Shown: positions 17,425 to 19,374 of the stretch, one piece after another
Position numbering within the stretch: the stretch's first letter is position 1
How the letters are laid out: every line of letters starts with the position of its first letter
Source of the DNA: Salibacter halophilus
GTDB taxonomy: Bacteria; Bacteroidota; Bacteroidia; Flavobacteriales_G; Salibacteraceae
Length of the DNA: 64,000 nt
Assembly: GCF_008806325.1 (NCBI RefSeq)
Contig: NZ_WACR01000001.1
Location: 248,001 to 312,000 of the forward strand
Reading direction: 5' to 3'
Position numbers and translations under genes: made by a program
Notes under the pieces: generated by a model
Told to the model about the DNA's origin: nothing
Databases searched by the model: none
What the model saw: only the letters and a program-made list of their open reading frames with translations

Positions 17425-18693
17425 TTAAGGAATAACCTGAATGGTTCCACCATACGATTCTCGCTGTCCTTCGTAATAAACGACTGCCCGCCAAAAGAAC
17501 ACGAGTTGTGTCCTGTTAAAACTATCTATGTTGCGCGGACCTTCCCATTTCTTGGATGGATCTGAGGTTCTGAATACAACATTATTACTTTGATCGAGTA
17601 CTTCTAACTCAAAGCGGTATGCCGGATTTTCCAGCGCAACCGGCAACCACGTATCGTTTTTACCATCTCCGTTAGGCGTGAATGCATCAGGAGCGAGCAA
17701 GTTATACGATTCTTCAACAAAGATTACCTGTTGATTGGTATCAGCACAACCCGCATCATTTGATGTGATAAGGCTCGCGTTGTAACTTCCTTTTTTCAAT
17801 AAGAAAACAGAAGTACTTTCATCCTTTGATACAATTTCATCGTTGAGCAACCACTTGTATGAAGCACCACCCGAACCGGTATTTTCAAAGTTGTAATGTG
17901 GTCGGCCGCCATCAATAAGGTCTTTTGAATATGTGAAATTTGCTGTTGGTTTTCCTTTCACTTCAACTTCAATCGGTTCAGTTTCACCAGTTGAATAAAC
18001 CGCTACGAGATTTTTCGTTCCTTCATCAGCAAAAGACAATGAATGTTCATCATAAACTCGTCCACGGCTGTCTTTCAATTTGAAATCTGTACCGTTACTC
18101 AATTCAAATGAAACCTTTTCACCTTTACACACAACAGATTTTGAAACCGTCAAAATTGGAGTTTCGGTCTCTGTTTGCTGTGGCGAGTTCTGCGTGTTTT
18201 CAGTAACTACCGAATTGTTTTCACGGTCAGAGCCAACTTCGTTTTCCGCCTGCTTTTCATTTTCAGAAACGGGCTCAGAGGTTTCAGTCGTTGATTTCGT
18301 CTCGCTGTTCACTTCTGATTTTTCATCAGTCTGCAATTTAGCTGGTTCTGACGATGAAGCAACATCATTTTCAATTGACTCTTCAACCTTGCTTTCCTGA
18401 TTTTCAACTTCATCAGATTGCTGATTTATTTCAGCCACCTGCTCAGTTTGGGTATCAGGATTGGTGCTCGGTTCTGACCATTCATAATTCACTGCAAAAC
18501 CAATTGCTGCAGCAACTAAGGCCAACAACCCGAATTTCAGTGCTGAAGAGCCGGCTTTAGGTCCTGCATTTCCAGAACCTGCGGCATCCATTCGCTGTTG
18601 AAGATCATCCCAGGCGTTATCCCTACGAGGCCCCTCGTAGTTCTCCATCGCCTTTCTGACTTCCTTTTCAAAATTATTTAGTTCGTTACTCAT
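17425..18693 (-). CDS. Membrane protein with anti-sigma-like N-terminus and gliding/T9SS-type C-terminal domain
   Basis: The protein is 422 residues. Residues 1-48 are cytoplasmic, with a Bacteroidota anti-sigma-like pattern (FEKEVRKAMENYEGPRRDNAWDDLQ). A single membrane helix spans 52-69. Residues 75-180 are a Glu/Ser/Thr-rich linker, 180-330 PKD-like beta domains, and 331-422 a gliding-motility-associated C-terminal domain with AFTPNGDGKND (337-347). It is the second gene after an ECF sigma factor, overlapping it by 4 bases, so it probably restrains that sigma factor while sensing something in the periplasm. No cleavable signal peptide is present, which is unusual for proteins carrying this C-terminal domain. 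The linker carries two 11-mer copies. Confidence 0.75.
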   Translation of the reverse strand: MSNELNNFEKEVRKAMENYEGPRRDNAWDDLQQRMDAAGSGNAGPKAGSSALKFGLLALVAAAIGFAVNYEWSEPSTNPDTQTEQVAEINQQSDEVENQESKVEESIENDVASSSEPAKLQTDEKSEVNSETKSTTETSEPVSENEKQAENEVGSDRENNSVVTENTQNSPQQTETETPILTVSKSVVCKGEKVSFELSNGTDFKLKDSRGRVYDEHSLSFADEGTKNLVAVYSTGETEPIEVEVKGKPTANFTYSKDLIDGGRPHYNFENTGSGGASYKWLLNDEIVSKDESTSVFLLKKGSYNASLITSNDAGCADTNQQVIFVEESYNLLAPDAFTPNGDGKNDTWLPVALENPAYRFELEVLDQSNNVVFRTSDPSKKWEGPRNIDSFNRTQLVFFWRAVVYYEGQRESYGGTIQVIP

Positions 18694-19253
18694 CTATGAT
18701 GAATCGTTTTCAGTTGTTCTTTTAGTTTATGTTTCGCTTTTGACAGGTTCGATTTTGACGTTCCTGTACTAATTCCCAACAATTCTCCAATTTCCTTGTG
18801 GGAATAATCTTCGATCACGTACAAATTAAAAACGGCTCGATAAGCCGGTGGTAAATCCTGAATGGCTTCCATCACGCGTTCGCGTTCTGAAAAAAGTGTT
18901 TCGTTCCATTCAATTTCATCGTTGTCATCGGCCTCAAGCCAGTCGTAATCTGTATCATCAATACTTATGTGATCAAACTTTCTTTTTCGCACAACATCAA
19001 TGGCCGTGTTGACGATTACTCGTCTTACCCAACCTTCAAAAGAACCGTTACCATCGTACTTTTCAAGGTTTAGAAAGACTTTTATAAATCCTTCCTGCAA
19101 CACATCCCATGCCTTATCCTTATCACCAATATAGCGCAGGCAGCTACCGTACATTTTGGGATACAAAGACTCGTAAACCTTTCGTTGAGCTTGTTTATCT
19201 CCCTTACGGCAACTGTCGATAAGATTTGCATAATTTGGTTGCTCCACGCTCAT
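18690..19253 (-). CDS. ECF-type RNA polymerase sigma factor
   Basis: The 187-residue protein has sigma region 2 (CLRYIGDKDKAWDVLQEGFIKVFLNL, near 37-62) with the following EGWVRRVIVNTAIDVVRKRK, and region 4 (LPPAYRAVFNLYVIEDYSHKEIGELLGISTGTSKSNLSKAKHKLK, near 134-178). An acidic insert links the two. It directs RNA polymerase to a dedicated regulon, likely envelope-related given its membrane partner encoded downstream with a 4-base overlap. Similarity to the SigP-type regulators of type IX secretion is possible but cannot be decided here. Confidence 0.93.
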   Translation of the reverse strand: MSVEQPNYANLIDSCRKGDKQAQRKVYESLYPKMYGSCLRYIGDKDKAWDVLQEGFIKVFLNLEKYDGNGSFEGWVRRVIVNTAIDVVRKRKFDHISIDDTDYDWLEADDNDEIEWNETLFSERERVMEAIQDLPPAYRAVFNLYVIEDYSHKEIGELLGISTGTSKSNLSKAKHKLKEQLKTIHHR

Positions 19254-19374
19254 TGTTGTTGATTTAATGACGCATTTTTGCTGAAGGGTTGCTTAAAGCG
19301 AAGGTTAATTTGTGACTAAATTAACATTCATTTCAGTAATCCGTTCGTTATGTGTTTTTAATAATTGGGGTTTT

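Follow-up and report, generated by a model that had tools for sequence, protein, structure and literature searches.

The window analysed here, a stretch of 64,000 nucleotides from Salibacter halophilus, encodes an ECF sigma factor and, overlapping its gene, an anti-sigma-like protein that ends in an altered T9SS type B sorting domain. We propose that the two proteins form an autoregulated switch for giant T9SS surface proteins, in which the C-terminal domain (CTD) of the anti-sigma-like protein would be a mimic that senses the occupancy of the T9SS or its carriers. Our confidence in this proposal falls a little below even.

The sigma gene lies at positions 18690 to 19253 and the anti-sigma-like gene at positions 17425 to 18693, both on the minus strand, and the two share an ATGA overlap. 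The sigma protein, of 187 aa, matched Sigma70_r2 and Sigma70_r4_2 (Pfam) as well as TIGR02937 (NCBIfam). It belongs with the ECF sigma factors, as it consists of sigma regions 2 and 4 only and has a predicted autoregulated promoter. In its 422-aa partner, which carries a C-terminal CHU_C/T9SS type B domain, no FecR, zf-HC2 or other named anti-sigma domain was matched in Pfam or NCBIfam at E<1. The initial annotation had placed both genes correctly and had paired them as sigma and anti-sigma factor; this pairing is supported by the Pfam and NCBIfam sigma domains and by the presence of an ECF neighbour at all loci examined.

From its N-terminus, the partner consists of a putative cytoplasmic sigma-binding domain of two helices with an invariant W28 (aa 1–49, positions 18547–18693), a single transmembrane helix (aa 50–69, 18487–18546), an acidic disordered tether (aa 70–177, 18163–18486), a first Ig-like domain with an invariant C189 (aa 178–245, 17959–18162), a PKD domain with an invariant C316 (aa 246–330, 17704–17958) and a CHU_C-like CTD of T9SS type B (aa 331–422, 17428–17703), all encoded on the minus strand. 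The AlphaFold2 model contains helices at residues 7–17, 27–40 and 55–69 and confident beta domains at about 178–420. The tether was assigned from its composition and from the disorder of residues 65–174, where pLDDT is below 50, and the transmembrane helix from the model and hydrophobicity. The hydrophobic segment spans aa 50–68 in the window protein, and each of 29 relatives has exactly one, near residue 50 in most and at about aa 35–77 across all. Judged from the position of this segment, which starts at aa 50 behind a conserved domain of ~49 aa, the partner has no N-terminal Sec signal peptide, and the relatives are similar. The model and the segment counts bear out the short N-in N-terminus and single membrane helix described in the initial annotation. 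Its long acidic linker is indeed acidic, although its composition is better given as mixed Ser/Thr/Glu/Gln/Asn over about 110 aa. Of the PKD-like domains that it named, one is a PKD domain by fold (Z ~11 to PKD structures), whereas the other, defined by the model, structure search and alignment, is a generic Ig-like domain. Structure searches returned no more than generic Ig/PKD relatives (the top Foldseek match was GhpA, a grappling-hook protein of Aureispira) and were uninformative on function. C189 and C316 are the sole cysteines of the anti-sigma and are invariant in 30/30 homologs, one in each of the neighbouring Ig-like domains. They may form an inter-domain disulfide or serve redox/disulfide coupling (cf. 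SprF-GldK, PMC12635249).

Homologs were searched for in 35 genomes of the same family and 42 genomes of the order. The order contained an anti-sigma homolog in 40 of its 42 genomes, one per genome, and two of these covered over three quarters of the profile while the others were full-length. All were found at E<1e-68, and the next matches in the 42 genomes were T9SS cargos at no better than 1e-45. At all loci examined, no more than a few bases separate the start of the anti-sigma gene from the end of an ECF sigma gene, and the two often overlap. As the homologs are present in nearly every genome and have this ECF neighbour wherever the locus was examined, the architecture is not a product of chance. 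Every member of the order that was examined, from three families, has kept the CHU_C-type head. Scanning named genomes with the sigma protein as query found more CHU_C-tailed partners in Crocinitomicaceae/Flavobacteriales and in Bacteroidales MAGs. The survey for the same domain fusion beside ECF genes, which the initial annotation had suggested, was thus strongly positive, within the order and in further taxa.

In Dysgonomonas and in genomes labelled Prevotella, a similar N-terminus and helix are followed by an outer-membrane-beta-barrel-like end, and these barrel-type partners have weak Pfam OMP_b-brl matches. The N-termini of CHU_C-tailed proteins and of the barrel-type proteins of Dysgonomonas and relatives aligned in hhalign at 96.4% probability (E 1.3e-9), and the window sigma factor is 41–46% identical to the sigmas that adjoin the barrel-type anti-sigmas of these organisms. 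Like the Dma family, the window protein combines an N-terminal anti-sigma domain, one membrane helix and a long disordered tether with an adjacent ECF gene, where the likeness of the N-terminus was established by homology to the barrel-type proteins of Dysgonomonas and relatives rather than to the Dma1/2 sequences themselves. In Dma, an adjacent sigma factor of class ECF21 is counted as a family criterion (PMC13088901). Unlike Dma, the window protein has Ig/PKD domains and a T9SS type B-like CTD in place of the outer-membrane beta-barrel, and its predicted regulon consists of T9SS cargo instead of vesiculation or PUL genes. As the barrel is one of the defining Dma features, we do not class the protein as Dma, though it is Dma-like and partly homologous.

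Next, we focused on the CTD. It matched CHU_C (PF13585, described in Pfam as a 'type IX secretion signal') with E=1e-8 and 35.7 bits, over the cut-off of 27, in agreement with the T9SS type B domain of the initial annotation. PKD_4 was matched below the Pfam threshold. The NCBIfam type B model TIGR04131 gave 31 bits, under its own cut-off of 35, which was the first hint of drift in the CTD of the partner. An alignment of the CTDs of 57 cargos and 30 anti-sigmas located this drift. The Arg, Trp and Gly of an RWG turn occur in 93, 91 and 100% of the cargos versus 10, 0 and 50% of the anti-sigmas, and a near-invariant Tyr occurs in 98% of the cargos versus 17% of the anti-sigmas, where Phe is found in 25/30. 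The window anti-sigma itself has lost the Arg-Trp of RWG and the conserved Tyr, and has kept TPNGDGKND. Across the anti-sigma homologs this TPNGDGxND loop is mostly kept in 24/30 and lost in 6/30. All five conserved type B motifs are required for secretion in F. johnsoniae (PMC12618676). As the text of that study gives no residue letters, we infer from order and from strand/loop placement that RWG corresponds to its motif B and the Tyr to its motif D. The loss of residues that are near-invariant in cargos makes the anti-sigma CTDs look like secretion-incompetent mimics of the type B sorting domain.

In a tree of the CTDs, the anti-sigmas of the order and of Crocinitomicaceae grouped in one clade (support 0.94) that also contained a single cargo; most Bacteroidales anti-sigma CTDs adjoined this main clade. 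On this tree, the anti-sigma CTD is apparently an old shared domain and not the result of recurrent capture of the tail of a neighbouring cargo. We rejected the idea that the CTD of the regulated cargo is the model for the head, as the anti-sigma CTDs form a separate clade; the best match of the head in its own genome is a different cargo. The same genome contains a second ECF/anti-sigma-like pair (L016, G000:C2, ~324289–325951), with a sigma of 185 aa and a partner of ~373 aa that has PKD and CHU_C domains, the latter at 63.7 bits. The CTD of this partner is without RWG, like the main set, and branches apart from the main anti-sigma clade.

A predicted autoregulatory ECF promoter, GCAACC-N14-CGTC, is located at positions 19269–19292 on the minus strand, 15 nt upstream of the sigma ATG. 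In most relatives, GGCAACC-N14/15-CGTC, which has the form of an ECF promoter, is found upstream of the sigma gene. The strict pattern has only two sites in the 3.1-Mb genome of S. halophilus. One is the site before sigma, and the other lies 30 nt upstream of the gene for a secreted cargo of 1060 aa, which combines a signal peptide and Ig/PKD domains with a canonical type B CTD (CHU_C 63 bits). With 28 CHU_C matches in the genome and a promoter zone of ~100 nt for each, we estimate the chance that a random second site falls before a CHU_C gene at ~0.0005. The relaxed pattern GCAACY-N14/15-CGTY had 16 sites in this genome versus 34 in the reversed control, i.e., background, and the strict form alone was therefore used there.

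Over 35 genomes, we found 68 strict sites. For 50 of these, an ORF starts no more than 120 nt downstream, among them 18 sigma genes and 13 genes for proteins with a CHU_C match. Further downstream genes encode type A Por_Secre_tail proteins, and some ORFs were cut by contig ends. In a control with the same letters and the wrong spacing (18/19), two of 40 sites lay before an ORF, with no sigma and no CHU_C gene among them. These two (L251 and L255) precede secreted proteins with type A-like C-termini, and may be chance matches or promoters with longer spacers. A Pfam scan of 19 downstream proteins, two of them from the wrong-spacing control, identified seven with a type A sorting domain and six with CHU_C. 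One candidate regulon protein (L096) has SprB repeats.

In at least 14 relatives, such a cargo gene immediately precedes sigma, and in others the promoter marks a cargo at a separate place. Ten genomes of genus g8 and one g13 genome share the order cargo, sigma, anti-sigma, with cargos of 982–1162 aa. At these loci, GCAACT-N14-CGTC/T lies 27–30 nt upstream of the cargo and a second promoter lies upstream of sigma. Coordinates suggest the same order in one more g8 genome (G011), and it recurs in two other families (L296, L297, L298 and partly L299). At L300, a promoter-like site precedes a separate large secreted protein. The sites before sigma genes and T9SS cargos therefore lead to the prediction that this sigma factor controls its own operon and giant T9SS surface proteins, autoregulation included. 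These sites could also be recognised by another sigma factor that prefers the same promoter.

Three side observations concern the surroundings of these sites. Family f3 has a gene for a small secreted protein (150–163 aa) directly upstream of the cargo gene, whose start it overlaps (L297:6420–6872 and L298:6339–6830); at L298 a promoter-like site lies upstream of it. One genome (G027, L133–L139) has 11 strict sites versus none in the reversed control, many of them before secreted proteins with type A or type B CTDs, and is a predicted case of an expanded regulon. In two genomes, a sugar-transferase gene has a promoter-like site upstream of it, at a distance of 57 nt for L289 (G000:C4:205192–205216) and 104 nt for L135 (G027:C6:98060–98084), and a surface-polysaccharide gene is possibly in the same regulon. 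These genes were called by Bac_transf (PF02397) for one group member and by eye for the one in the S. halophilus genome.

S. halophilus has a T9SS, with SprA found at 2521 bits, and seven PorP/SprF-type genes (PF11751). Type B CTDs bind PorP/SprF carriers (PMC9143113), and type B substrates are expected to follow a carrier cycle analogous to the one described for the translocon (PMC10994853). None of the seven carrier genes is near the sigma/anti-sigma pair, nor is a PorP/SprF gene found beside the cargo operons, so that a carrier as a member of the operon was rejected. Apparent PorP matches at the cargo operons fell on CHU_C proteins, one of which had been included in the query set made from these loci. 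An adjacent carrier gene is frequent but not universal for type B cargo, as three orphan type B proteins exist in F. johnsoniae.

We propose the following mechanism. The N-terminal ~49 residues would hold sigma at the inner membrane, and the membrane helix with its flexible tether of ~110 residues would give the Ig/PKD-CTD head outer-membrane reach. As the head has lost residues expected to be necessary for export, it could engage the translocon of the T9SS or one of the PorP/SprF-type carriers and stay unsecreted, reading their occupancy by competing against real cargo. Free carriers would let the mimic dock; the anti-sigma would then be pulled or cleaved, and the released sigma would transcribe the cargo gene along with its own operon. 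With carriers full of cargo, the mimic would be displaced and sigma recaptured. Activation by free carriers would make a sensible homeostat; the sign of the signal is uncertain, and activation by jammed export is the alternative. The gene pairing, the architecture, the descent of the head from a T9SS sorting domain, the homology of the Dma-like N-terminus, the promoter with its predicted regulon and the loss of CTD residues can be read from sequence, and it is sigma binding, T9SS docking, the direction of the signal and the release step that we infer. The predicted T9SS-cargo regulon and the loss of CTD residues lend support to a T9SS link, and this loss fits the decoy or sensor that the initial annotation had suggested. 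The predicted targets encode surface cargo and include neither T9SS machinery nor stress genes, so the matching of production to export fits better than a secretion-stress response. In its fuller form, our reading is that of a domesticated sorting signal, an export-defective type B copy on a trans-periplasmic tether that would couple surface-protein transcription to export capacity. We offer this more tentatively, as a possibility. The two invariant cysteines could couple the anti-sigma to the T9SS/gliding track by disulfide exchange.

The main rival explanation also builds on the likeness to Dma. The protein would be a Dma-like envelope sensor whose inherited Ig-fold head binds another periplasmic or outer-membrane ligand and is blind to the T9SS, while sigma still controls T9SS cargo. 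We consider this possible but rather doubtful. The lost RWG and Tyr residues agree with a blind head, as does the beta-barrel head that related anti-sigmas bear instead. As the TPNGDG loop is gone in six of the homologs that retain the domain, the domain may have no remaining T9SS contact. However, the loop is mostly kept in the other 24, a CHU_C-type domain is kept in all examined members of the three families of the order, which are T9SS bacteria, and the predicted regulon is T9SS cargo.

If, on the other hand, the CTD were still functional, the T9SS could carry the head over the outer membrane, and the resulting dual-membrane protein would display it and sense contact or a ligand, with a Dma-like topology and a PorA-like surface input. 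Dma proteins do reach from the cytosol to the outer membrane (PMC13088901), PorA is a surface CTD protein that feeds PorXY-SigP (PMC7712824), and the tether has the length needed to span the periplasm. Given that the residues expected to be necessary for type B export are lost and that a cognate carrier gene is absent nearby, surface display seems unlikely. The CHU_C match over the Pfam cut-off would also suit an ordinary T9SS cargo that has an unusual N-terminus and stands downstream of a sigma gene by accident. This is very improbable, as all loci examined have an adjoining ECF gene, which in most cases overlaps or lies a few bases away, and as the conserved N-terminus is homologous to that of barrel-type anti-sigmas. 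The proteins are also without an N-terminal signal peptide and have their one membrane helix at a similar place in all. The initial annotation had likewise argued against ordinary cargo, and the N-in topology, the ECF adjacency and the lost CTD residues are in line with its view.

FlgM/FliA is a known example of a secretion-coupled anti-sigma system, in which FlgM is soluble and itself exported. The switch proposed here is alike in concept, in that the state of the anti-sigma would report on the machine that exports the regulated products. Unlike FlgM, the window protein is membrane-anchored and its signal is apparently export-defective. In P. gingivalis, PorA and PorXY-SigP similarly link a T9SS CTD protein to a T9SS-connected ECF sigma pathway (PMC7712824). 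There, however, T9SS machinery genes are the targets, and a surface CTD protein reaches them via a two-component system (PMC7712824), whereas in the window protein the anti-sigma itself bears the type B CTD, in drifted form, and the predicted targets are cargo genes. Type B cargo such as SprB, with its carrier SprF, shares the CHU_C fold behind PKD/Ig domains and the TPNGDGxND loop (PMC9143113, PMC12618676), and the window protein differs from it in being anchored in the inner membrane without a Sec signal peptide, in the loss of RWG and Tyr and in the lack of an adjacent carrier gene.

We found no description of a CHU_C-tailed anti-sigma in the searchable literature, which included a minority of subscription papers and preprints. 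If our proposal is true, the protein would be the first anti-sigma factor known to us that has a T9SS sorting domain at its core. The comparison with barrel-type proteins suggests that the Dma-type scaffold is modular, with one tether and exchangeable heads directed to the outer membrane, either a beta-barrel or a T9SS domain. The predicted promoter provides a simple handle for finding and measuring the regulon in cultured relatives. Our hypothesis gives a testable answer to the question of how Bacteroidota may keep the production of giant surface proteins in step with their export by the T9SS.
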